A stretch of DNA of 64,000 bases, from the NCBI GenBank assembly GCA_027487515.1, contig JAIYDL010000007.1, positions 186,001-250,000 of the forward strand. The letters run 5' to 3'. Origin of the DNA: Pseudomonadota bacterium (GTDB lineage: Bacteria > Bdellovibrionota > Bacteriovoracia > Bacteriovoracales > Bacteriovoracaceae). Within the stretch, counting starts at the first letter, position 1. Every line of letters begins with the position of its first letter. The notes under the pieces were generated by a model. The model was not told the DNA's origin. It did no database searches and was given only the letters and a program-made list of their open reading frames with translations. The position numbers were made by a program, and so were the translations under genes. Shown one piece after another: positions 2,052 through 63,566 of the stretch.

Positions 2052-2381
2052 CGCGCCCACCCCAAACTCTGCGTCCGCCAGGAAGCTTTAAGACGATGCA
2101 ACTTAGTGCTACGAAACCCTACCCTGAGTAAAGAATGACGAACATCAAGAGGACCTAAATTAACTTTGATTTTAGTCTTACATTCATCCGTCAAAGGATG
2201 GGATTACAAACGAGAAGAGAGTATTTCCATGCTGAGACGGGACAATCCTTCGTGTGGACTGGAGTGCCATCGCTTGACCTCTTTCATCCAAAAGAAAGAC
2301 CTGCTGATCAGTTAAATCCATGAAGAGAACCAGAAACATCAATTTTTGTATTGATTGACCAATTTATGCTATAAAACAGGA
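2052..2381. other. Divergent intergenic region, 330 bases
   Basis: This region separates the adaptor gene (leftward) from the GFA gene (rightward). I see no convincing ORF or RNA gene. The right end holds the promoter-like element described at 2367-2375. It is more AT-rich than the flanking export genes. Confidence 0.5.
2367..2375 (+). promoter_or_regulatory. Extended -10 element, probable leaderless start for the GFA gene
   Basis: TGC precedes TATAAA (2370-2375), an extended -10 box. Only six bases separate it from ATG 2382, so transcription should begin at or next to the start codon. A weak -35 (TTGTAT) lies 18 bases upstream. Confidence 0.45.
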
Positions 2382-2762
2382 ATGAAGATCAATCAGACGC
2401 ACAAGGCATCTTGCCACTGCAAGGCCGTTTTATTCGAACTCTATTTGCCCAGGGGACTTGAGAATCCCAGAAGGTGCGACTGCTCTATGTGCAGAATGCG
2501 AGGGGCGATTGCGGCCTCTGTCTCGTTGGAGAACTTGACGATCCTTCAAGGTCAAGACAAGCTCACTCTTTACCAATTCAACACCATGACCGCCAAACAC
2601 TACTTCTGCTCAATCTGTGGGATTTACACACACCATCAAAGAAGATCGAACCCCAAGGAGTTTGGGTTCAACATCGCCTGCCTAGAAGGAGTAAACCCTT
2701 TCGAATTATCTTATGTTCCCGTGATGGATGGTGTTAATCACCCTGCAGATCGAGAAAATTAA
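2382..2762 (+). CDS. GFA (glutathione-dependent formaldehyde-activating-like) / CENP-V domain protein
   Basis: About 126 residues, normal for single-domain GFA proteins. Zinc-ligand cysteines occur in the family pattern: ASCHCKAV near the N-terminus, RRCDCSMCRMRG about 25 residues later, and HYFCSICGIYTHHQ in the middle. The fold binds zinc through these Cys pairs; despite the name, most members have no proven activity, so the substrate is unknown. An in-frame TTG at 2355 would add nine residues, but it falls inside the promoter and ATG 2382 fits the family start. The gene stands alone. Confidence 0.85.
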   Translation: MKINQTHKASCHCKAVLFELYLPRGLENPRRCDCSMCRMRGAIAASVSLENLTILQGQDKLTLYQFNTMTAKHYFCSICGIYTHHQRRSNPKEFGFNIACLEGVNPFELSYVPVMDGVNHPADREN

Positions 2763-2922
2763 AAGTCCTCGCCCACTCGATCCAGATTATAATTGCCTAA
2801 GACCGCCCATTTTACCAAAGGGGTTTGCCAATCGCAGGATTCGGGATCCTTAGCTCAAAAAACAATCCGTACACAGGAGGTAAATTTCGAAATAAATGAC
2901 AGAAGATCCTTAATCCGTCAGG

Positions 2923-3375
2923 CTACCTTTTATGAAAAAGTCGAAAAGGCTGGACAATGTTTACGCTTTTAAGACCTATCAACTCTTTTCTACCTTTTAA
3001 CTCAGACAAGCAACTCTTAAACTCTTGAGACATCTGAACCTCCCTCGTCGAGAACTCAAAATAATCTATGTCTCCATTCACAGAGTACCCGGCAACAAAG
3101 CATAAATTGAAAGAATGATTCTTGTTCGTTCTTTCCATTTCGTCCTCGTAGCATCTCTTTACCGTGGGCTCCAAACTTAACATGCGGGCAAAGATATCAT
3201 CTTCCAAGATCTTCCTCTCAACTACCGGTGGATTAGAACTCTTCTTCAAATAGGCTAACGACTCTGAGGAGCAGACTTTATCAGCTAAAAATGGAGGAAT
3301 CGAATCTTCAACTCTCAAAGATGAGCATGCGGCCAGAGTAAACAGAAGCAGCAAAAAAATACTTTCATCTGTCAT
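2923..3375 (-). CDS. Lipoprotein with AgmX/PglI-type C-terminal region (hypothetical)
   Basis: About 150 residues. A signal peptide ends in lipobox LAAC, so the mature protein is probably anchored in the outer membrane. The C-terminal half (NLCFVAGYSVNGDIDYFEF, then a cysteine and a short helix) resembles the TonB-like AgmX/PglI C-terminal domain of myxobacterial and Bdellovibrio envelope proteins; this is recalled similarity, moderate at best. ATG 3375 puts the signal peptide at the very N-terminus; TTG 3396 is the alternative. A -10-like TATTGT lies eight bases before this ATG, but AGGAG is also close. It lies 51 bases downstream of the next lipoprotein gene and may be co-transcribed with it. 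Confidence 0.6.
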   Translation of the reverse strand: MTDESIFLLLLFTLAACSSLRVEDSIPPFLADKVCSSESLAYLKKSSNPPVVERKILEDDIFARMLSLEPTVKRCYEDEMERTNKNHSFNLCFVAGYSVNGDIDYFEFSTREVQMSQEFKSCLSELKGRKELIGLKSVNIVQPFRLFHKR

Positions 3376-3426
3376 GACTCCTGACAATAGCGGCAAATCA
3401 AACCTAACGACGAGGACTTTCAGAAA

Positions 3427-4062: not shown

Positions 4063-4413
4063 AGGTGTCTCCGTTTAAGTTTTTATTCTTTTCGGAAAAC
4101 GAACTAATTTCTTTAGAATTTTGACACTTAATACAACTTCAGTCCTGATCTTAGAGAGTTACCAGAAACTGTAAATGCTGGCTTTCATTTGTACTTAATC
4201 CTGACAAAAGTGATAAACAAGTTAGCAGTACATCCTTTACAGCGGTGAGTTTTTCTTTCTTCTATCCAGGCACTTGTGTCAGACATAAAGTAAAAACCTA
4301 AAATGCTGATGGGTTTAATAAAAACACTAAAAAGCGACTGATCGAATGAGCTCTCAGCCGCTTTAGGATACTTTTTCTTAGGTGCTCGTTTTGCTAACCG
4401 CTTGTAGGATCAT
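4063..4413. other. Intergenic region, 351 bases
   Basis: AT-rich stretch between two leftward genes. It contains the terminator at 4325-4364 for the upstream TIGR02147 operon and must contain the promoter for the lipoprotein gene starting at 4062. I could not pick a convincing -35/-10 pair, and I see no ORF or RNA gene. Confidence 0.5.
4325..4364 (-). terminator. Rho-independent terminator of the TIGR02147 operon
   Basis: An 11-bp inverted repeat (4331-4341 with 4354-4364, one mismatch) has the core AAAGCG/CGCTTT and CTGA/TCAG. Read on the minus strand, the stem is followed by a T-rich run. It lies 50 bases past the stop of the gene at 4414. Confidence 0.65.
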
Positions 4414-5358: not shown

Positions 5359-6146
5359 GACAGACCTCTCTCCTTAATTGAACTTGTAATTGGATATAGC
5401 TGGATTGCAAGCTGATACACTCCTGACCGGTGGCCTTCTTTGGCAAGTGCTGCCATTTTTTGACGGAATTCTCTAATTATTGATTTAACTTTAGGAAGTT
5501 TTTCTGGGTCTAGGGCGAACATGATTGAAGAGAAGTCTCGTTCTTCAACACCAATGGATTCGATCTTTTCTTTTCCCATCTCAAGAGTCTCAATGTGACC
5601 CTTGCGAAGGGCGATGCTGGTTACGTCTTCAGTCGTTCTAACTCTCGCGTGAGATTTTTCATACCCATTCACACCATGAGTTAGGAGGCCACAGGTCAAG
5701 AGATTAGTTAAAACCACTTCCGCTCTGTTGAGAGGAATCCCCAATCGGCTCGCAATGCCACGGGCATGGGGTTTAAAATCATCGACATCAAACAGGGTTA
5801 AAACTGCGTAATGCTCCCATTCAGAGATGACGTTGAAATAGGATTCATCCAGCATAAACCTTTCGTCAGACTCGTCGACCTTGATGGCATCGATGGCGGA
5901 TTTGCCATGATTCAAACTTTCAACGAACAGCGCTTTTTCTTTTGGGCCAAGGGCGAGCTTATTTACAATTTGAGAGCACTTACCGAGCGGAAGTCCTCTC
6001 TTGCCATTAAAGACCATGCTTATGGTCGCAGCGTGAACACCTAAATCCCGTGCGTAGGCCCTTAAGGAGTACATGGGAGAACGTCTCTGTTTTTGGGAGA
6101 AGTCCTCTTTCAGTTTTTGAATATAGTACGGAACACTTTGTTGCAT
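5355..6146 (-). CDS. TIGR02147-family (DUF4423) regulator
   Basis: 263 residues. The N-terminal helix-turn-helix region includes SLRAYARDLGVHAATISMVF and the GKRGLPL stretch; the middle and C-terminal part match the DUF4423 pattern of this family (ISEWEHYAVLTLFDV, ISRGIPLNRAE-like segment, and a closing REFRQKMAALA). The family is abundant in Fibrobacter and Bdellovibrio and is thought to be cytoplasmic DNA-binding regulators; targets are unknown. It lies first in an operon with the secreted protein gene and overlaps it by four bases. The start lies six bases after a -10-like element with no ribosome site, suggesting a leaderless message. Confidence 0.85.
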   Translation of the reverse strand: MQQSVPYYIQKLKEDFSQKQRRSPMYSLRAYARDLGVHAATISMVFNGKRGLPLGKCSQIVNKLALGPKEKALFVESLNHGKSAIDAIKVDESDERFMLDESYFNVISEWEHYAVLTLFDVDDFKPHARGIASRLGIPLNRAEVVLTNLLTCGLLTHGVNGYEKSHARVRTTEDVTSIALRKGHIETLEMGKEKIESIGVEERDFSSIMFALDPEKLPKVKSIIREFRQKMAALAKEGHRSGVYQLAIQLYPITSSIKERGLS

Positions 6147-6152
6147 GAATCT

Positions 6153-6161
6153 ATTCTACCA
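6153..6161 (-). promoter_or_regulatory. Extended -10 (TGG TAGAAT) directly before the TIGR02147 gene
   Basis: On the minus strand TGG TAGAAT ends six bases before ATG 6146. No Shine-Dalgarno motif fits in this space, so a leaderless transcript is likely. I see no clear -35, as is common for extended -10 promoters. Confidence 0.5.
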
Positions 6162-7320: not shown

Positions 7321-7367
7321 GAAGAGAATTCCCTGATCAGTTAGAGAGCATTCACTTTAGCTGAAAA

Positions 7368-7444
7368 TGGCGCACTGGACAGGACTCGAACCTGTGACCT
7401 ACCGATTAGAAATCGGTTGCTCTATCCAGCTGAGCTACCGGTGC
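7368..7444 (-). tRNA. tRNA-Arg (anticodon UCU)
   Basis: 77 bases with CCA encoded. Acceptor stem GCACCGG/CCAGTGC (one C-A mismatch), D-arm GCTC-GAGC, anticodon stem ACCGA/TCGGT with loop TTTCTAA, T-arm ACAGG-TTCGAGT-CCTGT, discriminator G. It reads AGA codons. It stands alone between the VOC gene and rsgA and marks the right edge of the AT-richer accessory stretch, a common place for integration. Confidence 0.95.
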
Positions 7445-7561: not shown

Positions 7562-7570
7562 TGGTACCTT
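7562..7570 (+). promoter_or_regulatory. Extended -10 (TGG TACCTT) directly before rsgA
   Basis: TGG TACCTT ends six bases before ATG 7577 and there is no Shine-Dalgarno sequence, so rsgA is a candidate leaderless gene. Confidence 0.4.
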
Positions 7571-7576
7571 GTCAAA

Positions 7577-8545
7577 ATGACCATCCGCGCCCGCATTTTC
7601 CGTTCATCCAAAAGACATTTCGACTGCCAGCGCGAGGACACCAAGGAAGTCGTTCAGGCCACCGCCCTGGCGATGCTTCTTAAAGGTGAAGATCACCTCG
7701 TGGTCGGAGACTGGGTCGAGCTCTCCCCTCCTCCCGTAGGAGGCGAGGAATGGAAGATTGAACGGACGGAAGAAAGATCCAACGCGATCTTTCGAAACCT
7801 CCCCCGAGAACAGAAGAAAAAAGTCATCGCTGCCAACGTGGACGTCATGCTCGTGGTGATGAGCGCTGGAAAGCCATCCTATAAGCGCGGCCTCGTTGAC
7901 CGCTACCTCGTGCGCTCCGATTACTGGAATGTCCCGGCCTACGTTGTGTTTAATAAAATGGACATGCACGATCCGGAAGAGTTTGACCTCACCTACGAAG
8001 CCCAACGCCTCCAATGGCTGAACGTCAAATGCTTCGAAGTTTCTGCGGAAGACCCCACCTACAAGCCACGCTACCTGGCCCACGGTTTCGAAGACCTCCA
8101 CCGGGATCTTCTCGGGAAGACAACGATCCTTCTCGGACACTCTGGTGTTGGAAAGAGCCGGCTCATCACGGCGCTCTCCAGGGGCCGCGTCGAACTCTTA
8201 AGTGGTGAGTTAGGAAAAGTTGGCAAAGGCGCCCACACAACGACCTGGGCCGAGCTCATCGACGCCGAAGACTTCACGCTCATCGATTCCCCCGGAGTTC
8301 GCTCTATGTCTCTGGGTGACCTGACGAAGCAAGACCTTCTCTACTGCTTTTCGGACATCAATGAGTGGTCGACGAAGTGCCGGTTCTCGAGCTCGTGCCA
8401 GCACGACTCGAGCTCGAAGGGGTGCTTTTTCCAGGAGCTCGATCAAATGAAAAGAGAGGATCTGATGATCCTCTCCCGCTTAGATTCTTACATGCGAATT
8501 CTCGATGAGGTTTCGAACATCCCCGACTGGCAGAAGAAAACCTAG
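7577..8545 (+). CDS. rsgA: Ribosome small-subunit biogenesis GTPase RsgA
   Basis: 322 residues. An N-terminal OB-fold is followed by the circularly permuted GTPase domain in the diagnostic G4-G1-G3 order: NKMD near residue 125, P-loop GHSGVGKS near 187-194, DSPG near 236. The C-terminal zinc-binding region has cysteines and a histidine (CFSDINEWSTKCRFSSSCQH, then C). RsgA assists late maturation of the 30S subunit in the cytoplasm. ATG 7577 fits the family's N-terminus; TTG 7535 is less likely. Its stop codon shares a CTAG palindrome with the convergent small lipoprotein gene. Confidence 0.95.
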   Translation: MTIRARIFRSSKRHFDCQREDTKEVVQATALAMLLKGEDHLVVGDWVELSPPPVGGEEWKIERTEERSNAIFRNLPREQKKKVIAANVDVMLVVMSAGKPSYKRGLVDRYLVRSDYWNVPAYVVFNKMDMHDPEEFDLTYEAQRLQWLNVKCFEVSAEDPTYKPRYLAHGFEDLHRDLLGKTTILLGHSGVGKSRLITALSRGRVELLSGELGKVGKGAHTTTWAELIDAEDFTLIDSPGVRSMSLGDLTKQDLLYCFSDINEWSTKCRFSSSCQHDSSSKGCFFQELDQMKREDLMILSRLDSYMRILDEVSNIPDWQKKT

Positions 8546-9412: not shown

Positions 9413-10198
9413 CTATGGGAGTGAATCAGTGCTCGTCAAGGTCGCTAGGGCTTTAATTTTTTCAAGCATTTGATCAAGGCCATCCACGAAGAGGGCAGGC
9501 CCGGGCTGGAGAAACACCGCAGGATCGAGTTCCCAGACCTGGTGGTTCTGAACTGCGCTGACTCCGGGGTACCGGTGAAAAAAGGAGTCGAGCTTAACCT
9601 TTTTTCCGCACCAGCAACCGAAGATGATCTCGGGATCAAGGGCCCTGACCTCTTCATCCGTCACTTCCCGGTCTCGAGCAAGAGGCCCGGCCTTATGAGC
9701 AAAGATGTTCACCCCACCACAGGCCTCGATGAGCTCTGAAACCCAACCGATTCCACTGTAGCGCGGATGATCCCATTCTTCGAAATAAACTCGAGGCTTC
9801 TTTGGGAACCTAGCACTTAAGCCGCGAACCTCCTGAAGCTTGCGCCGGAAGCCGGCCACCAAGTCACTCGCCTTTTGCTCCTCCCCGATGATTCGTCCCA
9901 GGAGAAGATTATTCTCAAGGATCTCCGCCAAAGAGCGCTGGTTCGTGACCAGCACCGAGAGCCCTCGACCGATCAGCTCGGCGGCAATCTCCCGCTGAAG
10001 ATCGGAGAAGCCGATCACCAGGTCTGGTCCCAGAACCACGATCTTTTCGATGTCAGAGCGAATGAATTGGCTCACCACCGGATGACACTTCGCTTCGGGA
10101 GGACGTTCTACGTATTGGCTAACTCCGGCGATCACATCGGATCTGCCAAGAAGGTAGAACGTCTCGACGGTTTCTTCAGTGAGGCATATAATTCTCAT
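9413..10198 (-). CDS. BtuF-like periplasmic-binding-fold protein without signal peptide
   Basis: About 261 residues. The order of motifs is that of the helical-backbone cobalamin/iron-siderophore binding proteins: RIICLTEETVETFYLLG, DVIAGVSQYV, KIVVLGPDLVIGFSD, IYFEEWDHPRY-like segment (VYFEEWDHPRYSGIG), and DPEIIFGCWCG. There is no signal peptide or lipobox, so it is likely cytoplasmic; signal-less relatives are common and often just named cobalamin-binding protein. ATG 10198 is preferred over ATG 10210 because TATGAT lies seven bases upstream. It is divergent from the DsbD-like gene; the Hsp20-like gene follows. Confidence 0.75.
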   Translation of the reverse strand: MRIICLTEETVETFYLLGRSDVIAGVSQYVERPPEAKCHPVVSQFIRSDIEKIVVLGPDLVIGFSDLQREIAAELIGRGLSVLVTNQRSLAEILENNLLLGRIIGEEQKASDLVAGFRRKLQEVRGLSARFPKKPRVYFEEWDHPRYSGIGWVSELIEACGGVNIFAHKAGPLARDREVTDEEVRALDPEIIFGCWCGKKVKLDSFFHRYPGVSAVQNHQVWELDPAVFLQPGPALFVDGLDQMLEKIKALATLTSTDSLP

Positions 10199-10205
10199 AC
10201 CGCTA

Positions 10206-10211
10206 ATCATA
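10206..10211 (-). promoter_or_regulatory. -10 element TATGAT before the BtuF-like gene
   Basis: On the minus strand TATGAT ends seven bases before ATG 10198, in a gap of only 23 bases between divergent genes. No ribosome site is present; a leaderless message is likely. Confidence 0.45.
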
Positions 10212-10221
10212 AAGGATTCTT

Positions 10222-12321
10222 ATGTTGAAAGCCATTTTTCTCCTCCTCATCTCCCTGACGGCCTGGGGGGCAGACGAGCACGCAACCTTCTCCGTCCAGC
10301 GTTGGCAGAAGAAGCTGGTGGTGACCATCAATCACGATGAGGGGTGGCACACTTACTGGAAGAATCCTGGGGACGCGGGGATTGCCTCGACGTTTAAATT
10401 CACCCCAGAAACCAAGGCCCACGAGTGGCCCGCACCCAAGAAATACGTGGAGGCCGGCGACATCGTGACCATCGGATACGGGGGCGTGAAGCACTTCTTC
10501 TTCGACGACCCTGCCGGTGCCATCGACCTCCAGGTCGGTGTCCTCATCTGCAAGGACATCTGCATCCCTGGTGAGGCGAAGCTCAAACTTGCCGCCAAAG
10601 AGGACTTCGTCGCCAGCCGGATGGCCAAACCGTTTGACCCAGCCACCCTCGAAGCGGCCTTCAAAGAGCTCCCCCTCGAAACGACGCTTCCCTCAACGCT
10701 TGAGTTCTACCTCACGAGAGCGAAGGGTCAGCCGAACCTCACCCTTCACTACAGCTTAAAAAATGTGAAGATCCCAAGCCTTCCCAAGGAAATGAACTTC
10801 CTGACTCCCTTTCCGCAAGCCCCCTGGGGATTTAAGCGCGAGTCTCTCTTCTATAAGGACGGGACCCTCTACGGAAAAACAGAAATTGAATGGGACGGAG
10901 AATACCAAGAACCGCCGGTCTCACTCCCAGAGTCTGGAAAATTTGAGCGCCCGTACCGACTCCAGTTTCTCCTCAACGCTCCGGGCTCAACCTCTGTGAC
11001 CGTTGTGACCTTGGCCGCAGAGAACTTCTCCCTTGGGTCTCCAACCCTTAACGAGTTCTACAAAAATCTTCCGCCCTTCACCGGCAAAGGCTCGGTCGCC
11101 GCCGGTACAGTCACGGACGATGAAGGGAGTCTTTTTAAGTACCTCCTCTTCGCCTTCCTCGGGGGCCTCATCCTCAATCTGATGCCCTGTGTGCTCCCGG
11201 TGATCTCCCTGAAACTCTTTGGACTCATCCAGCACAAGGGCCTACCGCAGAGGAAAATCCTCTCCCACAACCTCAGCTACACGGCCGGTGTGATCTCGAC
11301 GTTCATGGTTCTGGCCGGAGTGATCGCTGGCATCAAGATCAGCGGAGAAGAAATTGGCTGGGGCTTCCAGCTCCAGTCTCCGGCCTTCATCCTCGTCATG
11401 ATGCTGATCCTCTTCATCCTCTCGCTGAACCTCTTCGGGCTCTTCGAGTTCGCAACTCCGGGAGGCTCGAAGCTCGGCTCAGCGGAGCTCAAGGATGGTC
11501 TTGCGGGTGACTTCTTTTCAGGAATCCTCACCACGATCCTCTCCACTCCCTGCTCGGCCCCGTTCCTGGGAACTGCCCTGACCTTCGCTTTTACCACGTC
11601 GACGGCGAACATCTTCCTGATGTTTTTCTTCATCGGGCTGGGCCTCGCGTCACCGTTTCTCATGACGGCCGCGGTGCCCTCCGCTCTGAACATTTTCCCG
11701 CGGCCCGGCGCCTGGATGGAGAAGCTTAAATACTTCCTCGGTCTCTCCCTCCTCCTCACCGTCATCTGGCTCTACGATGTCTTCGTGTCCCTGGTGAACT
11801 TCGACCTCATCAGCTGGCGCCTGAACCTCCTCTTTGCCCTTTGGTTTTTCGCATTCTTCTTCGTCCAGAAGATCTCCCGATCGTGGGTTGCGAAGGCACT
11901 CGTGTTTGCGTTGCCCCTGGGACTAACTTTTCTTGCCATCCAGAATCTCGAGGCTAGGCCCTCGGCCTCCTCCGAAGTTGCAGGAACACAAAGTGAGTGG
12001 GCCCCGTGGTCTGAATCCAAGCTCGAGGGCGAGAAAGGGAAACTCGTGTTCATGGATTTCACGGCCGAGTGGTGCCTTACCTGCAAGGTGAATAAAAAAC
12101 TCGTCCTCGAAACAGACGGGTTCCGGAAGCTCGCGGAGAAGTACAACCTTGTTCTCGTGCGCGCGGACTGGACAAAACGGGATGACAACATCACCCAGTT
12201 TCTCAAGCGCTTCAAGGTCGTCGGAGTTCCCGCCTACTTCGTCCAGAAACCGGACGGAACGATCCTTTCCCTCGGTGAAACAATTTCCGTGGGAAAAATT
12301 GAGAGTCACCTGAAACTCTAG
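10222..12321 (+). CDS. ScsB/DsbD-family transmembrane thiol:disulfide reductase
   Basis: 699 residues. Signal peptide (about 1-17); a periplasmic N-domain with the redox pair CKDIC near residue 113; a DsbD-type membrane core with two conserved Cys-Pro regions (NLMPCVLPVISLKLFG near 327 and LSTPCSAPFLGTALTF near 437); and a C-terminal thioredoxin domain with WCLTCK near 616. It passes electrons from cytoplasmic thioredoxin across the membrane to periplasmic partners, serving disulfide correction, cytochrome c maturation or copper tolerance. The N-domain looks like ScsB rather than E. coli DsbD. An AAAGGA site precedes ATG 10222. The neighbouring exported Hsp20-like gene hints at an envelope-folding theme. 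Confidence 0.9.
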   Translation: MLKAIFLLLISLTAWGADEHATFSVQRWQKKLVVTINHDEGWHTYWKNPGDAGIASTFKFTPETKAHEWPAPKKYVEAGDIVTIGYGGVKHFFFDDPAGAIDLQVGVLICKDICIPGEAKLKLAAKEDFVASRMAKPFDPATLEAAFKELPLETTLPSTLEFYLTRAKGQPNLTLHYSLKNVKIPSLPKEMNFLTPFPQAPWGFKRESLFYKDGTLYGKTEIEWDGEYQEPPVSLPESGKFERPYRLQFLLNAPGSTSVTVVTLAAENFSLGSPTLNEFYKNLPPFTGKGSVAAGTVTDDEGSLFKYLLFAFLGGLILNLMPCVLPVISLKLFGLIQHKGLPQRKILSHNLSYTAGVISTFMVLAGVIAGIKISGEEIGWGFQLQSPAFILVMMLILFILSLNLFGLFEFATPGGSKLGSAELKDGLAGDFFSGILTTILSTPCSAPFLGTALTFAFTTSTANIFLMFFFIGLGLASPFLMTAAVPSALNIFPRPGAWMEKLKYFLGLSLLLTVIWLYDVFVSLVNFDLISWRLNLLFALWFFAFFFVQKISRSWVAKALVFALPLGLTFLAIQNLEARPSASSEVAGTQSEWAPWSESKLEGEKGKLVFMDFTAEWCLTCKVNKKLVLETDGFRKLAEKYNLVLVRADWTKRDDNITQFLKRFKVVGVPAYFVQKPDGTILSLGETISVGKIESHLKL

Positions 12322-24449: not shown

Positions 24450-24491
24450 TCAATTGAGGGGGAAATTCAAGTTCCCGTAAATCAATTCCCA

Positions 24492-24500
24492 TGCTAGCCT
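24492..24500 (+). promoter_or_regulatory. Extended -10 (TGC TAGCCT) before the small secreted protein gene
   Basis: TGC TAGCCT ends seven bases before ATG 24508; no Shine-Dalgarno sequence is visible, so a leaderless transcript is possible. Confidence 0.35.
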
Positions 24501-24507
24501 CATTTAT

Positions 24508-24852
24508 ATGAAGAGCATTCTTACTGTCATAGTTTTGGCGCTATCGACGGCAGCGTATTCACAGGATGAGGCGCTGCTGCAAGATCCCGTCACCAAACCA
24601 GTGCTCAGCCAACGGTGCCGAGAGTTATTTAAAGAGCGGGCCGATAAAATTAAGGTCCAGCAGCGGCTCAACGGACTCCTCCAGCGGAACGAAGAGCTCC
24701 TCCGGAAATCTCCCAAGGCCAAGAGCACGGTCCACGCCCGACTCAATTCCACACGGGTGAAGATCCGGAACGAACTCTACTTGACGAATCTCCAGGTGGA
24801 ATCGATGGAGGAAACAATCGTCCGCTCCGGTTGCCCCGGTCTGTCTCTTTAA
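24508..24852 (+). CDS. Small secreted coiled-coil-like protein
   Basis: 114 residues with a signal peptide of about 18 residues (ends AAYS). The mature part is almost entirely helical and charged (RCRELFKERADKIKVQQRL onward), with heptad-like leucines, and has single cysteines near each end. It precedes the TolC-family gene by 77 bases on the same strand, so a link with envelope export is possible. A separate promoter seems to drive TolC. I recognise no family. Confidence 0.6.
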   Translation: MKSILTVIVLALSTAAYSQDEALLQDPVTKPVLSQRCRELFKERADKIKVQQRLNGLLQRNEELLRKSPKAKSTVHARLNSTRVKIRNELYLTNLQVESMEETIVRSGCPGLSL

Positions 24853-27224: not shown

Positions 27225-27836
27225 TTAACGGATCTCGGAGATCACGTGGTCTTGTCCAGAGAAGAGGCTCTGTTCCTGCTTGATGTAGGCCTTCGCTTCT
27301 TCGACATTGCTGAAGACACCGAGACTAACCCGATACCAGGTTCCTTTATCCGCGATTTTCACTTCGTTAATGATGGGGCTATAACCGCGCACGGTAAACC
27401 CCTCCGCAAACTGCTTCGCTTCGTCGAGGGTATTGTAGGAGCCTAGTTGAATCGTAAATTTCCCTGCCATCGTCGAACTCATCTTATTTTCTGAATCCGC
27501 GGGAGTACTCATCGGCGTCGCCGGCTTGTCATCGGAGGAGAACTTCTCTAGCTCATCTGAAAGCCGAGTCTTTGATTCATCCATCAGCTTCTTAAGCTTT
27601 TCTTCATCGCTAAGTTTGGCGTCTTGAGAGACCGTCGCTTCGGCATCCTCTTCGACGGAAGATTTGAGCTCCACGGTCTTCTCATCCTCGGGCTTGAGCC
27701 CCGCTTCATTAAATGCAAGCTTCCGTCCTAAGCGGATGCCCAATGTGAAGCTCGTAATAATCAAAACCACTACAAAGATCAAAACCAGGATGATTTCTTT
27801 CTTTTCAAAAATGATGACTTTATTATTTTCTTCCAT
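27225..27836 (-). CDS. SPOR-domain inner-membrane protein
   Basis: 203 residues. A cytoplasmic basic tail precedes one membrane segment (about 14-36), then an acidic, low-complexity linker (about 45-120) and a C-terminal SPOR domain (about 125-200) with FTIQLGSYNTLDEAKQFAEGF and WYRVSLGVFSNVEEAKAYI. SPOR domains bind denuded peptidoglycan at division sites, so a cell-division or wall role such as FtsN-like or DedD-like is likely; the exact partner is not evident. It converges with the barrel gene and diverges from the pilus operon. Confidence 0.85.
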   Translation of the reverse strand: MEENNKVIIFEKKEIILVLIFVVVLIITSFTLGIRLGRKLAFNEAGLKPEDEKTVELKSSVEEDAEATVSQDAKLSDEEKLKKLMDESKTRLSDELEKFSSDDKPATPMSTPADSENKMSSTMAGKFTIQLGSYNTLDEAKQFAEGFTVRGYSPIINEVKIADKGTWYRVSLGVFSNVEEAKAYIKQEQSLFSGQDHVISEIR

Positions 27837-27842
27837 GTCAAT

Positions 27843-27848
27843 ATTTTA
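27843..27848 (-). promoter_or_regulatory. -10 element TAAAAT before the SPOR gene
   Basis: On the minus strand TAAAAT ends six bases before ATG 27836; no ribosome site fits in between. Candidate leaderless start. Confidence 0.5.
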
Positions 27849-27974
27849 GGGGTTTACCCCATTTTGCGCCACACATTTTCATACTTGAACAAAACACTCT
27901 CCTAGCTCCCCCACCCCCCTGACACCCTCAAGCGAGACCCGTAAAACGAGGACCTAACCCTAACGGAGGCACCT

Positions 27975-29782: not shown

Positions 29783-29795
29783 GAGGAGCTATGAA

Positions 29796-30020
29796 TTACT
29801 TCGTCGTAGCTTTCTTAGTTACTTTCTTTGTGACTTTCGCAGCTTTCGGTGCGGCAGCTTTTGTAGCTTTCGGTGCCTTCGGAGCAGCAGCAGTAGCTTC
29901 TTCATGGATAGCAAACTTAGGAGTCGTGCCCTTATTCCGGTTTGCGGCCTTTCTTTTCGCACCCATAGCTCTGTGCTTAGCTTTACGACGGTTTTCGGTT
30001 ACTGCGGTTCTAGAAGCCAT
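29796..30020 (-). CDS. Histone H1-like, Ala/Lys/Pro-rich DNA-binding protein
   Basis: 74 residues. The N-terminal half is basic (RTAVTENRRKAKHRAMGAKR, then NRNKGTTPKFAIHE) and the tail is a repetitive Ala-Lys-Pro-Thr sequence (PKAPKATKAAAPKAAK and on), as in eukaryotic H1 tails and bacterial H1-like proteins. It should bind and compact DNA. GGAG stands eight bases before ATG 30020, supporting translation. It is read against the pilus operon, between the small periplasmic protein and the secretin, and lies wholly antisense to an N-terminal extension that the secretin frame could have from ATG 29791. Confidence 0.8.
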   Translation of the reverse strand: MASRTAVTENRRKAKHRAMGAKRKAANRNKGTTPKFAIHEEATAAAPKAPKATKAAAPKAAKVTKKVTKKATTK

Positions 30021-30044
30021 AGGGATCTCCTCAAAGAAAAATCA

Positions 30045-30050
30045 TAAGTT
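30045..30050 (+). promoter_or_regulatory. Possible -10 (TAAGTT) before the secretin
   Basis: TAAGTT ends seven bases before ATG 30058, which has no ribosome site. Weak on its own, but the spacing matches the other leaderless candidates in this window. Confidence 0.25.
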
Positions 30051-30057
30051 ATCAAAA

Positions 30058-31338
30058 ATGAAGCTCCTCAATGTAACGGTAACCCTTTTACTTGTCAAAA
30101 CCTTCCTGTGTTTGCCCGTCGCGGCAAATGCATCGATGTTGTCAAGTGACATCATCCTCGCCAAGGGGGAACAAAAAGAATTGTCCCCCGGTGCCTTGAC
30201 CAACTTTTCCGTGGGGAACCCCGAGGTGATTTCCTATAAATACATGCCAAAGCAAGGAAAGCTACTGATCAAGGGGAAAAAAGTCGGTTTCACAGACCTC
30301 GTGATTTGGAACAAGGAGGGAAAACAGGTCTACAGCATCTACGTGCTCTCGAAGCAGAAGTTCCTGAAGACCTTCCAACTCGCAGACGCTCTGAAGAATT
30401 TGAATCTCACGATCGACATTAAAGGGCCGGTCATGACAGCTTCGGGCTCTCTTACCGACTTCTCTGATTACCTCTACTTACAAAAAATCCGAGCGCAATT
30501 CCAGGAACAGGTGTTTTTTAAGATAACGATCTCAAGAGACCTTCGAAACCACATCATTGGCCAGCTCTACCATAAACTCTACGCGAACGGCTTTTCCAGC
30601 GTCGCCTGTCAGCTCGATTGGCTCGACATCACCTGCTACTACGAGGGACAGAAAAACGAGGGCCTCCTGAAGCAGCTGGCGAGCTTTTATCGAGTGACGT
30701 TCATAGCCCAGGACTCGCGCCAACAGCGTCGGAACTACCGCCTAAAACTTAAACTCATACAGGTCGAGCAAATGGATGGGCGCGAGATCCATCTTGGCCT
30801 AGATAAGCTCTCCGGAAACATCTCCGACCTCTTCGAATTTGGGCTACGGAGGCTCATCGATAACAACGCAGTCCTCCTGGCCAGGTCTAAGCTTGATCTC
30901 TCGACCTTGGCTGAGCCGGAGCTTGTGGCGAACCTCAACGCCAATCAGCTCGTCGAGATTGGGTCTCAAATCCCCTATCAAAATGTTTCCGTCCAAGGGA
31001 CGGCAGTCATCGCCCCGATCGACTGGCGCTTCGCAGGGCTAAAGATCAAGACAAAACTCTCCGAGTCCTACGGAAAGCTCCTCCTCGACTACGAAACTGA
31101 GTTCTCAAGGCCCGTCGACCAGGCCATCAGCGGAAGCAAGGAGGTCTCATCGGCATTCCTCGAGGTCGGTGTGCCATTGAAGATTTTTCAAATCGGATTC
31201 CAAACCTCGAGCCGGGATCGACGGGGGATCCCTCTCATTTCCGAGATTCCCGTGCTTCGGCACCTCTTTGAATCAAAGTCAGACCAGAAAACCTATAAAC
31301 ACATCTACGGGTACGCAGTGCTCGAAGAGGCCAACTAG
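30058..31338 (+). CDS. Secretin of a Tad-like pilus (CpaC/RcpA family)
   Basis: 426 residues from ATG 30058, where a signal peptide begins (KLLNVTVTLLLVKTFLCLPV, cleaved near VAANA). An N-terminal pilus-assembly domain has LAKGEQKELSPGALTNFSVGN and GFTDLVIWNKEGK. A middle region with a cysteine pair follows, and the C-terminal secretin gate has VANLNANQLVEIGSQIPYQN, GLKIKTKLSESYGKLLLDYE and the closing RGIPLISEIPVLRHLFES. It forms the outer-membrane pore for the Flp pilus. The frame stays open upstream to ATG 29791, which has AGGAGG four bases before it, so a form with 89 extra residues cannot be excluded. It is followed one base later by the ATPase gene. Confidence 0.85.
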   Translation: MKLLNVTVTLLLVKTFLCLPVAANASMLSSDIILAKGEQKELSPGALTNFSVGNPEVISYKYMPKQGKLLIKGKKVGFTDLVIWNKEGKQVYSIYVLSKQKFLKTFQLADALKNLNLTIDIKGPVMTASGSLTDFSDYLYLQKIRAQFQEQVFFKITISRDLRNHIIGQLYHKLYANGFSSVACQLDWLDITCYYEGQKNEGLLKQLASFYRVTFIAQDSRQQRRNYRLKLKLIQVEQMDGREIHLGLDKLSGNISDLFEFGLRRLIDNNAVLLARSKLDLSTLAEPELVANLNANQLVEIGSQIPYQNVSVQGTAVIAPIDWRFAGLKIKTKLSESYGKLLLDYETEFSRPVDQAISGSKEVSSAFLEVGVPLKIFQIGFQTSSRDRRGIPLISEIPVLRHLFESKSDQKTYKHIYGYAVLEEAN

Positions 31339-36151: not shown

Positions 36152-36181
36152 TTGACAGCGCGCAACGCGTTGGCATACCTT
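36152..36181 (+). promoter_or_regulatory. Strong promoter ending seven bases before ATG 36189
   Basis: Consensus -35 TTGACA (36152-36157), 18-base spacer, -10 TACCTT (36176-36181). The predicted start of transcription is at or next to ATG 36189, and no ribosome site exists, so this gene is a strong candidate for a leaderless message. The same promoter would feed the rlmI and ABC exporter genes. Confidence 0.7.
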
Positions 36182-36188
36182 GAACCCC

Positions 36189-36491
36189 ATGACTTCACTT
36201 CTGAAAGATGGGCTTATTAAGCCAGCTTCTCCCCGAGATACGTTCCTGGCCGGCTTCGAGGATCAGCTCTCATCGATGAAAGACGTGGTGGAGGTCGAAC
36301 GGCTGATGAAGAAGCTTCAATTCCTGGGCCTTCACTTTGATCCGTTCCAGGAGGAAACTGAGAGCGAATGCGACACGATTCTGGAACAGCTCGGTCTAAA
36401 GGACCTGACTTCCAATCCCTACGAGTCGACCAACATTCTCCTTCGGCTTCTTGATAAGACAGAAGAAAAACTAAACACCCTCAAGCAATAA
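36189..36491 (+). CDS. Hypothetical 100-residue acidic protein
   Basis: 100 residues, helix-rich and acidic, without signal peptide or membrane segment, so likely cytoplasmic. Leucine-rich amphipathic helices (LEQLGLKDL, ILLRLLDKTEEKLNTLKQ) suggest a small coiled-coil or helical-bundle protein. It leads the rightward operon with rlmI and the exporter, 16 bases before rlmI. The promoter is excellent and the codon use matches its neighbours. Family not recognised. Confidence 0.6.
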   Translation: MTSLLKDGLIKPASPRDTFLAGFEDQLSSMKDVVEVERLMKKLQFLGLHFDPFQEETESECDTILEQLGLKDLTSNPYESTNILLRLLDKTEEKLNTLKQ

Positions 36492-50231: not shown

Positions 50232-51188
50232 TTAGTCGAGGTCGAGGTCTGCGAGGTGTTGTTCGATGTAATCTGAGAAGTAGGCCCGCACCTTAAGAAG
50301 GGCGTCTGTCTGAGTCCGGCCCGTAACGGTCTCAGAGACCGCGAGGACCTTGCGCTTCTCCCCTTGCAGGTAGCTCGTCATGTTGAGGGTGAAGGTGTAC
50401 TTCTCAAAGCCGGAGACGTTCAGGTATTCTTTGATCGAGTCGACGTTCACGGAGATCGCTTTTTCAGAGTCCCCTTTCACGATCCGAAAGCCGGCCTCAG
50501 TCAGGAGCTCGCGGAGCTTCTCCGTGAGCCACTCCGGAGCTTGTCCGATCCTCAAGGCGAGGGCCTCGTCTCGGGACTTCGCCTGCCGCCACTCCGTGAG
50601 ATTTTTCCAGCTCACTGGGCTTAGCCTCGGGGCCCCGGAGACGATCGAGAAGCGTTCGTTGAGCTTGTCTCGCTCCAAGTAAAGCCTAGTGATGCGGCGG
50701 AGGTTGGTCCGATTCCGTCGCTGCCAAAGGACACCGAGTTCGTCGTCGACCTTTTTTAACCGGCCCCCGATCAGCTCACTCGCCCTCTGGCGGTCTAGAG
50801 AGGCCAGTGCGTACGTGAGGCCTTTTTCGCGGTGATGCCTCTTCACTTCGACGGTCTCGAGGACTTGGTCAACGGATTCTTGGAGCGACCGACGGACTTC
50901 TTCACGGACAGCCCCCTGCCAGGGGTACGACTGAGTCATGGTGCTTTCTGCACTCAGTTCGGAGGTCACGCGCACCTCGAAGATACTCGCGAGGTTCTTC
51001 CGCGCCTCGGCGTCGGCCTGCCCCAGACTCCGGGCCTCCCCGGTAGCACACAGTTCACGCTCCTGAGAACACTCTTCATAGGGTGCGTAGAGCCAGGCTG
51101 GCGCCTTCTTGAGTTCATCCGTAAGCATGGGCTTAGGAGTCATAAAAGTGCACCCGCTCAAAAGGGAGAACAGCAAAATCTTATTCAT
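50232..51188 (-). CDS. LPP20-type lipoprotein, first gene of the lipoprotein operon
   Basis: 318 residues. Short signal with lipobox LSGC. APAWLYAPYEECSQERELC, then GEARSLGQADAEARKNLASIF, and TYALASLDRQRASELIGG match the LPP20 domain; a second domain (about 205-318) has LRELLTEAGFRIVKGDSEKA and a beta-rich end, like the FlgT-type half. It starts right after a promoter with eight bases in between and shares no ribosome site, so it may be translated leaderless. Part of the four-lipoprotein cluster. Confidence 0.72.
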   Translation of the reverse strand: MNKILLFSLLSGCTFMTPKPMLTDELKKAPAWLYAPYEECSQERELCATGEARSLGQADAEARKNLASIFEVRVTSELSAESTMTQSYPWQGAVREEVRRSLQESVDQVLETVEVKRHHREKGLTYALASLDRQRASELIGGRLKKVDDELGVLWQRRNRTNLRRITRLYLERDKLNERFSIVSGAPRLSPVSWKNLTEWRQAKSRDEALALRIGQAPEWLTEKLRELLTEAGFRIVKGDSEKAISVNVDSIKEYLNVSGFEKYTFTLNMTSYLQGEKRKVLAVSETVTGRTQTDALLKVRAYFSDYIEQHLADLDLD

Positions 51189-51196
51189 TCGCGAAA

Positions 51197-51225
51197 ATTG
51201 TGTCCCTCCCCCGTGTCAAAGTCAA
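51197..51225 (-). promoter_or_regulatory. Promoter of the lipoprotein operon
   Basis: On the minus strand TTGACT (51220-51225), exactly 17 bases, then CACAAT (51197-51202), ending eight bases before ATG 51188. Confidence 0.6.
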
Positions 51226-51338: not shown

Positions 51339-51986
51339 ATGGAACATCAGCTACCACAATTACCCTACCCCCAAACTGCTCTCGAACCGTACATTTCTTC
51401 TGAGACCGTGGCCTACCACCATGAGAAGCACCACCGGGGCTACGTGACCAAACTCAACGAGCTTATCAAGGATACTGAGTTCGAGGAAATGGAACTCAGC
51501 GACTTGATCCTTCGGTCTTCTGGTCCAGTTTATGACCAAGCCGCCCAACATTGGAATCATAGCTTTTTCTGGGAGTGTCTCAGGCCCGCCACGGCAGCGG
51601 CGCCGTCGCAAACGTTCATCCAGCGTCTAAGAGAGAACTTTGGTGGGCTCGAGGAATTCAAGCTCCGGTTCAAAGAAACCGCGGTGTCGAACTTCGGCTC
51701 TGGCTGGACTTGGCTCGTGCAAAAAGAGGACGGATCACTTGAAATTCTGAACACCTCTAACGCCGAGAATCCTCTGCGAGTCGAGTTGCGGCCCTTGTTG
51801 ACCCTGGACGTCTGGGAGCACGCGTATTACTTGGACTATCGAAACTCTCGCGCGGACTTCGTGGGCGCCTTCTGGGAGGTCGTCAACTGGGACTTCGTTG
51901 AGGCGAACCTCGAACTGAAAAGGCCCCAGCGCGAACGGGCGTTTAACCGGTCGCTGCCTTCAACGGATAGCCGACGTCCTCACTAA
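51339..51986 (+). CDS. Superoxide dismutase, iron/manganese family
   Basis: 215 residues without signal peptide, so cytoplasmic. Metal ligands are visible: His27 in AYHHEKHHRGYV, the His of AAQHWNHSFFW, and Asp/His in LLTLDVWEHAYYLDY. The Gln in AAQ and FGSGWTWLV (Thr rather than Ala) favour the iron type (sodB), though this cannot be settled by eye. GGAGG precedes ATG 51339. It dismutates superoxide to hydrogen peroxide and oxygen. The last 20 residues are an extra basic tail. Confidence 0.93.
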   Translation: MEHQLPQLPYPQTALEPYISSETVAYHHEKHHRGYVTKLNELIKDTEFEEMELSDLILRSSGPVYDQAAQHWNHSFFWECLRPATAAAPSQTFIQRLRENFGGLEEFKLRFKETAVSNFGSGWTWLVQKEDGSLEILNTSNAENPLRVELRPLLTLDVWEHAYYLDYRNSRADFVGAFWEVVNWDFVEANLELKRPQRERAFNRSLPSTDSRRPH

Positions 51987-52014
51987 AGTTTAACTTTCGC
52001 ACCCCATGGGGCCC

Positions 52015-52023
52015 TGCTATACT
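52015..52023 (+). promoter_or_regulatory. Extended -10 (TGC TATACT) before the response regulator
   Basis: TGC TATACT ends seven bases before ATG 52031; no ribosome site is present. One of the best leaderless candidates. Confidence 0.55.
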
Positions 52024-52030
52024 TCGGCAC

Positions 52031-52729
52031 ATGAAAAATTCGACAATCGTCGTTATAGAAGACGAACAAGACATCCGCGATCTTATCAGTTTTCAACTCA
52101 AGTCTGAAGGCCATGACGTCATCACCGCCGAGTCTGTAGACAAGGCAGTCTCGGCCGTGGAACGGGCCCAGGACATCGACCTCTTCATCATTGACTGGAT
52201 GCTTCCTGGAGTCATGAGTGGACTCGAGTTCACCAAGAAACTGCGGGCGCAAAAGAAATACGCCGAAACGCCCATCGTCATGATCACAGCCCTGACGCAG
52301 CCTGACAATATTGTTGCGGCCCTTGACGCCGGAGCGGATGACTACATCACAAAACCGTTTGATCTTAACGTCCTCCAAGCACGAGTCAGAGTCCAACTCC
52401 GGAACCTTGACCGGAGCGAAAAATCCCCTGAGGACTTGCTCGATTTCGGCCTCATGAAGATCGAAGTCAATAAGTGCCGGGTCCAGGTTGAGCGTGCCGA
52501 GGTCTCACTGACATCGACCGAGTTTAAGATTCTTTCAATGCTCGCGAGTAAGCCCGGTCATGTCTTCACCCGGGAGCAGTTCATTAATAACATCCAGGGT
52601 GAAAATATCTTCGTCACGGGTCGGACCATTGACACGCACATCGCGGGCCTCAGGAAAAAACTCGGAGCCGCAGCGAACATGATCGAGACAATCCGAGGGA
52701 TCGGCTACCGCTTCAAAGATGTCATCTAG
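52031..52729 (+). CDS. OmpR/PhoB-family response regulator
   Basis: 232 residues. Receiver domain with acid pocket EDEQD, phospho-acceptor Asp55 in FIIDWMLPG, Thr/Ala in MITALTQ and Lys in YITKPFD. C-terminal winged helix with LTSTEFKILSMLASKPGHVF, TREQFINNIQG, TVDTHIAGLRKKL-like (TIDTHIAGLRKKLG) and IRGIGYRF. PhoB-like. It overlaps the kinase by 11 bases, a cognate pair; the phosphate-related role of PhoB is not proven here. Confidence 0.93.
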   Translation: MKNSTIVVIEDEQDIRDLISFQLKSEGHDVITAESVDKAVSAVERAQDIDLFIIDWMLPGVMSGLEFTKKLRAQKKYAETPIVMITALTQPDNIVAALDAGADDYITKPFDLNVLQARVRVQLRNLDRSEKSPEDLLDFGLMKIEVNKCRVQVERAEVSLTSTEFKILSMLASKPGHVFTREQFINNIQGENIFVTGRTIDTHIAGLRKKLGAAANMIETIRGIGYRFKDVI

Positions 52730-58795: not shown

Positions 58796-58806
58796 AGGGA
58801 ACGAGC

Positions 58807-59832: not shown

Positions 59833-60015
59833 GGCGATAACCTTCTCAGTGTTCATGCGTTGAGGTGATTCTAGAGAAACCCTAAAAAAGTGCCAGTTGC
59901 TCGGTAAAGGTTTACGCCGGTGTTAAAAAATTCGACAGGTGAATACTTCAACTAAACCTCGACAGCCCCTAGGAAAATCTTGTACTTACGAGGCTTGTCG
60001 TGGTCCAGTGAAGAA

Positions 60016-60483: not shown

Positions 60484-60485
60484 GC

Positions 60486-60653: not shown

Positions 60654-62076
60654 TGTGTTTGCGGAGAATTTTTCCACTCTCTCGGACCGAGATGTCCGAT
60701 CCTCGAGCGCCGTAGAGGAGGTCCCGGGCCCGGCGTTGAGAGTCCTCCAGATTCACAATCCTTTCGGGATAGGTAACCCCGGGAACGTAACCGTAAAGGG
60801 TCGCTTCGAGGGGGGTGAGCTTCCAGGGTTCGTGGATATGATTCGGAGGCAGAACGGCCAGCTCGGGGACCCACTCACGGATGAAGCTCGCGTCCTGATC
60901 CTTTTCGAGGGATTGCTTCACGGGGTTGTAGATCCGGATGGTATTCACCCCCGTTACTCCCGCCTGCATCTGGAACTGTGGGAAGTGGATCCCTGGGTCA
61001 TAGTCAAGGAACATCCGCGCGAGATGCCGAGCTCCGGCCTGCCATGGCTGCCAGAGATGATGGGTCAGAAAGGAGACGACCATCGCTCGCATCCGGAAAT
61101 TGAGGTAGCCCGTCTGGCGCACACAGCGCATGCAAGCGTCCACGAGGGGGTACCCGGTCCTCCCCTCTTTCCAGGCGCGGTACAGGTCACGGTCAAGGTC
61201 CGTCCGAAGGTGATCGAAGCCTCGGTTCATGTTCCTGAACTCCAGCTCCTCCTCGGTTTCGAACTTCTGAATGAAATGGCAGCGCCACTGGAGTCGGGCG
61301 ATGAACTGGAGAATGTTCTTCTTCTCAGGGGCGTCTTTCAAAAGAGGAAGTGCCATCTGGTAAACCTGCCGCACAGAAAGATTTCCCCAGGCGAGATGGG
61401 CCGAGAGGCGCGAGCAGCTGTAGCGTCCCTGGGCCGGGACAGAAATGTTCTTTAAATAATCGAAGTGCCGGTGGTCAAGGAAATCTCCTAAGACTTGATG
61501 GGCCAGAGTTTCTCCACCGGCCTGGAAATCCCCAGCTCCGGAGGTCACCTCGTCCGGGAGATCCTGGGGAAGCCGAAGGCCAGTGACGTCGGCGAAGTGA
61601 ATCTTCGTAGGATCACTCGCCGCGACCGGATAGCGCATGGTCTGTGCCCATAGCCGCTCCCACTCTCGGCGGTCTCGGAGGGCCCGAACGACTCCGTTGG
61701 ATTGATACTCTTTCCAGGAGACGCCCTCCCGCCGGCACCAGCGCCGAACCGCCTTGTCTCGATCGTAGGTGACTTTCGTTCCTGTCTCTTGATGGGAGAA
61801 AAGATGCTTGATGGTAAAGGATCGAGAGATCTCGTCGAAGGCCGCAAGGACATCGAGGTGACCCCAAACAACCGGCACGAATTGGCCTAGGTCTTGGAGT
61901 GACTGGTAGGCAAAGCGCCAGTGCCGGGGATCCCAGTCATACGAGGTCCGGAGATCGGGTTCGAAACAAAAGAGTGGGATCACCGGGAGCTTTGACCGAG
62001 CCGCAGCGACGAGAGGGGCATGGTCACGCCACCGGAGGTCACGCTTGAACCAGACGACAGAAACTTCGGATCTCAT
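60640..62076 (-). CDS. Deoxyribodipyrimidine photolyase / cryptochrome
   Basis: 478 residues. N-terminal antenna domain ([26 protein letters not shown]). C-terminal FAD domain with [40 protein letters not shown] and [19 protein letters not shown], then the [13 protein letters not shown] strand. It resembles class I or related photolyases, which use blue light to repair pyrimidine dimers. Overlaps the upstream photolyase gene by four bases, so they form one operon. Repair activity inferred from family. Confidence 0.9.
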
Positions 62077-63554
62077 CTTGTGACGGTCGAAATAAAATCT
62101 GAGCCGAGGGACAGCAGGCGCTTCTTCCGGACAGGGTCCATTTTCTCGAGAGTCCGGACCATCATGTTCAGCCGAGGATTTTTACCGAAGAAGTCGCTGT
62201 GGTTACTGATGAAGCGCCAGAACAGACCGTCCCAGACATCGCACCAGTCCCCTTTTTTGTAATCGGACATTTTCAGGATGTAATTGCTCCCGGAGATGTA
62301 GGGCTTCGTGGCGAAGATCCCACCGTCCGAGAACTGCCCCATCCCATAGACATTCGGGCCCATCACCCAGTCCGCGCTATCCACGAAGAATTCCATAAAC
62401 CAGCGGTGGACCTCCCGCGGATTTAACTCGGAAAGAAGCATGACGTTCGAGAGGATCATGAGTCTCTCGATGTGATGGCAGTAGCCGTACTCATTGGCCT
62501 TCCGGATGGCGTCGTCCACGGGGGGGAGACCCGTAGTGCCGTTGTACCAGTGGTCAGTGAGTTTGCGCTCATGCCCCCAGAAGTTGCGGCGATCTTCTTC
62601 CTCCGAGAAATTCTGATAAATCCCACGGACGAATTCTCTCCAGCCCATGACTTGCCGGACGAAGCCCTCGACCGAATGGAGTGGGATCGTGGGGTCCTTC
62701 TCTCGCGCTGAGACGACGGCCGCGATGACTTCGGCGGGAGTCAGAAGTCCCGCGTTCACAGCGGGAGAAATGATCGAATGGTAGAGGAACGGCGCCCGCG
62801 GCGTAATGGAGTCCTGATAGGAACCAAAATCCCGGATATGGTGATCGACGAAGTGACGGAGGGAGCGCAGCGCCCCCTTGCGATCAACCGGCAGCCAGAA
62901 GTTCCGAGACTCGCCAGGATGGTCTGGGAACCGTGTCTCGACCAGGAGGGAAACCTCATCGACGTGATCATTCGGTGCAGTCCGCACCGGCGGTTTGTTG
63001 GTCAGAGTCTTGGGTGCTTTCTTCCGGTTCTCAGCGTCGAAGCTCCACTGCCCTCCCTCCGGCTTCCCCTTTTCGGCAAGGAGGATCTTGAGGCGCTTGC
63101 GCTCACCCTCGTAGAAGGTCTTCATGAAGGGTTTCGGGTGACGAAGGAGGTACGCCTTGAAGTCTTGCCGTGGGCAGAGGAACATGGGCGTTTCGAACAC
63201 CTCGTAGTCCACGCCCCAGTCTTTCAAGGCCTGGAGGAGTGACGCTTCAAAAAACTTGTCCTGGATCTCCCCGATGGTGACGTGCTTGATCTTCTTCTTT
63301 AAGAGGAAGGCCCGCAGCCGATCCAGGTAGGAGAGCTCGGAGAGCTCCTCATAGTGGACCGTGTGCCCGGCCGCCCGGAGTTCGTCAGCGTAGGTGCGCA
63401 TGGCCGCAAGGAAAAAGATGAGCTTATGCTTGTGGTACTTGAAGTGTGTACAGAGGCCAACGTCTTCGGCCATGAACACGGGTGCCCCGATGTAGGATTT
63501 GTAAACACTTTGGGGGAAGAGTTGGTCGCCGAGGACGACGAGGGCCTTTGTCAT
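62073..63554 (-). CDS. Cryptochrome/photolyase of the FeS-BCP/DPRP family lacking the usual Cys cluster
   Basis: 493 residues. N-terminus [13 protein letters not shown] and later [20 protein letters not shown], then [22 protein letters not shown], match the bacterial 6-4 photolyase-related family (DPRP, pfam04244-like). In iron-sulfur members a Cys-x2-Cys ... Cys segment follows at DYC..C; here the same place reads [20 protein letters not shown], with only one Cys. The 4Fe-4S cluster is thus probably absent. It is the first gene of the photolyase operon, with a leaderless-type promoter. Confidence 0.85.
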
Positions 63555-63560
63555 GTGGGG

Positions 63561-63566
63561 ATTCTA
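63561..63566 (-). promoter_or_regulatory. -10 element TAGAAT before the photolyase operon
   Basis: On the minus strand TAGAAT ends six bases before ATG 63554; no ribosome site fits. Candidate leaderless start. Confidence 0.5.

Follow-up and report, generated by a model that had tools for sequence, protein, structure and literature searches.

In Mycobacterium and other Actinobacteria, leaderless transcripts are associated with the hexamer TANNNT and their transcription starts at the start codon; these starts belong to another phylum and have been mapped experimentally, whereas those considered here are predicted. We analyzed a 64,000-nucleotide (nt) stretch of DNA (the window, G000:C2:186001-250000) from the source assembly G000, a genome of 3.41 Mb in 27 contigs assigned to the Bacteriovoracaceae. 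An earlier note on this stretch had pointed to hexamers resembling the -10 promoter element placed directly before eleven start codons, and had proposed that many of these genes are leaderless. The phylum concerned, Bdellovibrionota, was formerly placed in the delta-Proteobacteria and has since been split off.

Related signals have been predicted before. Zheng et al. reported in 2011 TA-like signals in 8 of 33 delta-Proteobacteria, covering 5.7–20.6% of genes and, as here, with TANNNT about 12 bp before the start (PMC3160421). The earlier statement that no description exists for this lineage should thus be softened. The passages of the survey that we consulted name no delta-proteobacterial genome and present no orthologue conservation. 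About one third of genes in Deinococcus radiodurans are reported to use a TANNNT leaderless motif (PMC12340547). The Deinococcus-Thermus genes resemble those of G000 in their motif, in a peak at -13/-12 obtained with the same pipeline, and in their coexistence with genes that have a Shine-Dalgarno (SD) sequence. They differ in amounting to about one third of genes in D. radiodurans and in having been tested experimentally, whereas the genes reported here are predicted, with a strict TANNNT count that exceeds expectation by some 8% of the non-internal genes. Transcription start sites of Bdellovibrio bacteriovorus have been mapped, and the main text of that paper contains no word beginning with "leader" (PMC3627812); its requirement that a start site be located upstream of a gene may have discarded starts falling on the ATG itself. 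Among the matches listed in our literature search, titles and abstract openings disclosed no specific account of leaderless genes in the Bdellovibrio/Bacteriovorax group, the single Bacteriovorax match being the title of a reference. Leaderless genes are a known kind, considered here in a lineage for which we found no specific description.

Hexamers abutting start codons in the window and source genome

Re-reading of the sequence placed -10-like hexamers 6–8 nt before the ATG at all eleven starts, as had been claimed (Table 1). The extended element TGn directly precedes the hexamer at five starts, the number claimed (2382, 6146, 7577, 24508 and 52031), and the -35 boxes noted upstream of 36189 and 51188 are present. 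The claimed lack of SD sequences also held, with no SD four-mer at any of the 11 starts. This test scores four four-letter motifs in positions -18 to -4; the last 3 nt are excluded, so the AGGA that touches ATG 2382 is uncounted. Strict TANNNT accounts for 8 of the 10 main hexamers, the exceptions being 2382 and 51188. The list of starts itself survived in part: eight have orthologue support, 30058 is very probably wrong, and 2382 and 10198 are no more than candidates. Overall, the sequence supports a leaderless interpretation of the eight.

Table 1. Putative start-abutting promoter elements and one control gene in the window
Feature	Span	Strand	Spacing to ATG (nt)	Gene and context
TGC-TATAAA	2370..2382	+	6	ATG 2382, GFA-family protein
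Extended -10 TGG-TAGAAT (6153-6158)	6146..6158	-	6	ATG 6146, DUF4423 protein, weak helix-turn-helix match
Extended -10 TGG-TACCTT (7565-7570)	7565..7577	+	6	ATG 7577, RsgA GTPase
TATGAT	10198..10211	-	7	ATG 10198; overlaps in-frame ATG 10210
Extended -10 TGC-TAGCCT (24495-24500)	24495..24508	+	7	ATG 24508, 114 amino acids, no Pfam match
-10 TAAAAT (27843-27848)	27836..27848	-	6	ATG 27836, SPOR-domain protein
TAAGTT	30045..30058	+	7	ATG 30058, internal codon of open reading frame 29791-31338
-10 TACCTT (36176-36181)	36176..36189	+	7	ATG 36189; TTGACA 18 bp upstream
-10 CACAAT (51197-51202)	51188..51202	-	8	ATG 51188, LPP20-type lipoprotein; TTGACT 17 bp upstream
SD-led control gene	51339..51986	+		divergent from 51188
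Extended -10 TGC-TATACT (52018-52023)	52018..52031	+	7	ATG 52031, response regulator (Response_reg + Trans_reg_C)
-10 TAGAAT (63561-63566)	63554..63566	-	6	ATG 63554, photolyase-related protein

The same signal was sought in 769 kb of G000, comprising the window and 36 further stretches (23% of the assembly). A home-made gene caller picked starts from the start codon and a codon-pair coding score, with no use of upstream sequence. Of its 673 genes, those at stretch edges (33) were dropped. Transcription units were guessed from gene distance, with a gene counted as non-internal if divergent from its neighbor or at least 40 nt behind a same-strand gene. Of 187 SD-less non-internal genes, 36 have TANNNT at -13/-12, where flanking positions predict 8.4 (p 6e-13) and far-upstream sequence 7.6. 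Position by position, these genes have 15 matches at -13 and 21 at -12, compared with 2–8 at each flanking position (-17 to -14, -11 to -8). Only 3 of 176 SD-bearing non-internal genes have the hexamer. Internal genes show it in 8 of 104 SD-less cases (2.2 expected) and in 3 of 173 with an SD, so that among SD-less genes it is enriched at the first genes of units (36/187 versus 8/104; Fisher p 0.01). The upstream profile, named beforehand as the test that could refute the proposal, therefore has its peak at -13/-12 where an SD is lacking and no such peak where one is present. The original argument for non-randomness is borne out by this peak, although its background rate of 1 in 64 applies to one position only, and allowing three spacings raises the chance expectation to about 2 in 40 starts. 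In sum, a TANNNT-like -10 about 12 nt before the start and the lack of an SD coincide in the same genes, which mainly stand first in their units.

The strict TANNNT excess among SD-less genes amounts to roughly 28 of 363 non-internal genes (8%), or 33 of 640 genes overall (5%). This is probably a lower bound on the leaderless share: hexamers like CACAAT and TATAAA escape the TANNNT count, and some starts will have been placed wrongly. Four of the listed starts (2382, 10198, 51188 and 63554) are absent from the 36 matches because another start was called, the hexamer is not strict TANNNT, or the gene lies at an edge. The identical count in D. radiodurans MP1 gives about 9% of non-internal genes, though about one third is reported for that species; by this analogy the leaderless share in G000 may exceed the count and may be two to three times as high.

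The signal in G000 probably has promoter character. When 64 patterns of the form XY...Z were ranked by their rise at the start-proximal position, TA...T was the strongest (z 10.4; runner-up 3.9); it also ranks first in the phylum mate G017 and in D. radiodurans MP1. Among 40 ATG-start TANNNT matches in G000, TG lies at offset -3 in 15 (0–4 at other offsets) and TTG at -23 in 7 (0–3 at other offsets). A three-class mixture model seeded with TANNNT recovered TG.TA.a.T at -12/-13 in non-internal genes of G000; its fractions were left unused, as the background class shrank to zero in each of the seven genomes and the motif was missed in MP1. A rule accepting at least four of six matches to TATAAT was likewise rejected for genome-wide counts as too loose. 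TANNNT genes and SD genes could not be told apart by A-richness behind the start codon.

A -10 element that ends 6–7 nt before the A of ATG is at the usual distance from a sigma-70 transcription start point. We consider it highly probable that promoters of the sigma-70 type abut start codons at a subset of unit starts in this genome and give rise to leaderless mRNAs, beside a working SD system. Such vegetative-type promoters would have a -10 hexamer ending 6–7 nt (range 5–9) ahead of the start codon. Transcription would then begin on the A of ATG or at most about 3 nt earlier, leaving a leader of about 0–3 nt. Ribosomes would then recognize the 5'-terminal AUG without SD pairing, and the remaining genes, above all those internal to operons, would be largely SD-initiated. 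Passages of one account describe recognition of a 5'-terminal AUG by ribosome-bound initiator tRNA, favored by initiation factor IF2 (PMC10783764). For the genes discussed here, the point where transcription begins, the sigma factor involved and the use of the 5' end for translation are all predictions from the DNA.

Conservation at orthologous starts

Orthologue upstream regions were cut at the start codon nearest the aligned N-terminus, with duplicates removed and shifts of more than four codons dropped; every set except that of 63554 includes the window's own copy. We scored hexamers ending 5–9 nt before the start, using three equally wide windows further upstream as control. For eight of the ten main hexamers, a -10-like sequence tends to recur at this distance in the orthologues, usually with no SD. 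Control windows in these eight sets contain TANNNT in 0–5 members per set, reaching 3 of 9 at 7577. In the pooled sets of 24508, 27836, 36189, 51188 and 63554, none of the 106 distinct upstreams contains an SD motif.

Two sets combine the hexamer with a -35 element. Orthologues of 36189 have TANNNT in 25 of 25 upstreams and an SD in none of the 25. By the looser rule of at least four of six matches to TATAAT, 22 of 25 score, 20 of the 22 at 9 nt, and 20 of the 22 have a -35 match. Most of these orthologues offer an overlapping alternative, a CATAAT-like hexamer 9 nt from the ATG and 16 bp from TTGACA; transcription from it would leave about 2 nt of leader. At 51188, 21 of 24 orthologues have [TC]ANNNT, one has strict TANNNT and none has an SD; the looser rule scores 19 of 24, all 19 with a -35 match. 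The divergent control gene at 51339, present in 11 of the 24 loci (at least 35% identity), has an SD in 11 of 11 and a -10 at 5–9 nt in 0 of 11.

All 23 orthologue loci of 24508 (window included) carry TGnTAnnnT, and an SD occurs in 0 of 23. Upstream of this element, 18 of the 23 loci (L356-L378) contain TTGCGTTA, which is absent from the window (24465-24508). A regulon defined by TTGCGTTA was considered and rejected: it has four matches elsewhere in the G000 sample, none of which, judged by eye, precedes TGnTAnnnT. The 27836 orthologues have TANNNT in 21 of 21 distinct upstreams and an SD in 0 of 21, omitting L198, L202 and L203, which yielded no start, and the fragment L205. About 45 bp before the SPOR ATG (27843-27890, minus strand; L179-L204) are strongly conserved among congeners and lack a classical -35; this block is possibly an operator or the site of another sigma factor.

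Response-regulator orthologues of 52031 have a -10 by the looser rule in 24 of 24, strict TANNNT in 9, an SD in 4 and a -35 match in 5 of the 24. Many of them (L149-L172; window 51990-52031) have TTAACC/TTTAAC-like repeats directly upstream of the -10. These repeats resemble a PhoB-type box for activation, perhaps by the regulator itself. For RsgA (7577), 11 loci, 10 of them congeneric, collapse to 9 distinct upstreams, 6 with strict TANNNT and 2 with an SD; a TTGTCAATC-like block upstream is common to the orthologues. For 6146, the 14 of 30 loci with at least 49% identity include 9 that pass the looser rule and 1 with an SD.

At 63554, the closest loci (61–89% identity) have TANNNT in 12 of 13 and an SD in 0 of 13. 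These 13 were picked by identity, after the alignment had been seen, from 80 loci that were themselves the best 80 of 177 relatives. The hexamer is not conserved in the other 67 loci, which reach at most 57% identity and often belong to other phyla: 11 of the 65 with a start have it, compared with 10, 10 and 5 in the shifted windows, and 18 of the 65 have an SD.

Other genomes and competing explanations

The same script was applied to a congener (G003), to three genomes from other families of the phylum (G014, G016 and G017) and to two outside genomes; a second congener, G032, was also consulted. In G003 (400 kb, GC content 0.41), TANNNT stands at -13/-12 in 21 of 126 SD-less non-internal genes (6.7 expected). 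Corresponding counts are 12 of 50 in G017 (2.4 expected), 17 of 126 in G016 (6.2 expected) and, in the known leaderless lineage of D. radiodurans MP1 (150 kb), 8 of 57 (1.1 expected). Escherichia coli K-12 (300 kb) has no excess, with 3 of 79 against 3.0 expected. Two of the three other families therefore show the signal, and the third does so weakly if at all. The 3' tail of 16S rRNA that holds the anti-SD, CACCTCCTTT, is intact in congener G032 and in G014, G016 and G017; the sequence examined from G000 and G003 gave no 16S match. G000 and G003, which are assigned to the same genus, have sampled GC contents of 0.543 and 0.407 (a difference of 0.14) and keep start-abutting hexamers at the same genes.

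Several observations weigh against leaderless initiation as proposed here, or against its generality. The family represented by G014 has only a weak rise (7/54, 3.3 expected, p 0.05). TA...T leads the pattern ranking in G003 narrowly (5.4 versus 4.8), is second in G016 and lies outside the top four in G014 and E. coli, and unrelated patterns in E. coli reach 5.0 by chance. Matches in G003 have no clear enrichment of TG (3/23) or of TTG at -23 (1/23). The looser -10 rule gives a small excess in G000 (44 versus 27.8) and none in G014. In the orthologue sets, control windows average 0.06–0.19 by that rule, and single ones reach 0.67 (27836) and 0.56 (7577). Strict TANNNT is found in 6 of 14 orthologues of 6146, and the looser rule is satisfied in only 1 of 9 at 7577. 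A -35 match is common only in the 36189 and 51188 sets, with 0–5 in each of the others. The blocks resembling regulator sites upstream of 24508, 27836 and 52031 make the sigma factor uncertain at those starts. Finally, the 36 matches in G000 include the rejected start 30058.

The best surviving alternative is that the hexamers are real but secondary promoters, the main mRNAs starting further upstream with SD-less leaders. The upstream regions do have space for further promoters, and conserved blocks reach further upstream at 24508, 27836 and 52031. Against this stand the confinement of the -10 peak to SD-less genes and the complete lack of SD motifs in the five pooled orthologue sets, which means that any longer leader would be SD-less as well. 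We regard this alternative as unlikely.

Considerably less probable is an A/T-rich ribosome-binding or unstructured-RNA feature within an ordinary leader, with no promoter at all. AT-rich signals before start codons are reported in Bacteroidetes and other groups (PMC3160421), and TT...A also rises in G003, at -9. Against such a feature stand the margin by which TA...T exceeds the other 63 patterns in G000, TGn and TTG at promoter offsets in that genome, and TTGACA/TTGACT conserved 16–18 bp upstream at 36189 and 51188; the same pipeline also finds E. coli blank at the same place. An artefact of start choice or base composition is barely credible: the caller erred in at least one start (30058) and SD-less upstreams are poorer in purines, making TANNNT likelier there, but starts were chosen on coding score and start codon alone, flanking positions of the same SD-less genes show no rise, and orthologue alignments fixed eight starts independently.

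Returning to promoters that abut the start codon, we give about even chances to the further proposal that leaderless initiation is an old mode in Bdellovibrionota. It would then span at least three families, act at conserved unit-first genes (the response regulator, envelope proteins, RsgA and the photolyase relative) and have been kept gene by gene across the genus, whose sampled members range in GC content from 0.54 to 0.41. If leaderless initiation is confirmed, a leaderless model should be used when the starts of genes in this group are annotated, and the predatory bacteria with their relatives would offer a Gram-negative setting in which leaderless and SD initiation operate in one genome with an intact anti-SD. 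Bdellovibrio switches between a non-replicating attack phase and growth (PMC3627812), and such phase-switching relatives would allow a phase preference of leaderless messages to be tested.

Starts outside the supported eight

Start 2382 has a single close orthologue. At 10198, orthologues have TANNNT in 5 of 18 distinct upstreams and an SD in 9 of 18. Among 22 loci, 12 start four codons upstream, at the place of ATG 10210, which the gene caller also preferred to 10198; one starts three codons and one a single codon upstream, six start at the same place and two have no start. Three relatives (L355; L354 and L337, from one genome; and L336) lack an in-frame ATG at the 10210 place and have TAAGAT or TATGAT 8–9 nt before the ATG, so a leaderless mRNA is possible for this gene in some species. 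At 10198-10222 the starts of two divergent genes are about 11–24 bp apart, which places the hexamer of one opposite the region holding the AAGGA of the other.

It is very improbable that a gene begins at 30058. Of 24 congener loci, 19 have TTG at the matching codon, and all 24 have a 29791-type ATG with an SD; in the window, GGAGGAG precedes ATG 29791. The N-terminal part of the 29791 open reading frame is poorly conserved and varies in length (L304-L327), while all 24 loci share the SD and their proteins mostly begin with MNY.

The segment 2001-8000 has a GC content of 0.42–0.45, compared with 0.46–0.58 elsewhere in the window, and a tRNA-Arg gene adjoins at 7368-7444; it is possibly an acquired segment.

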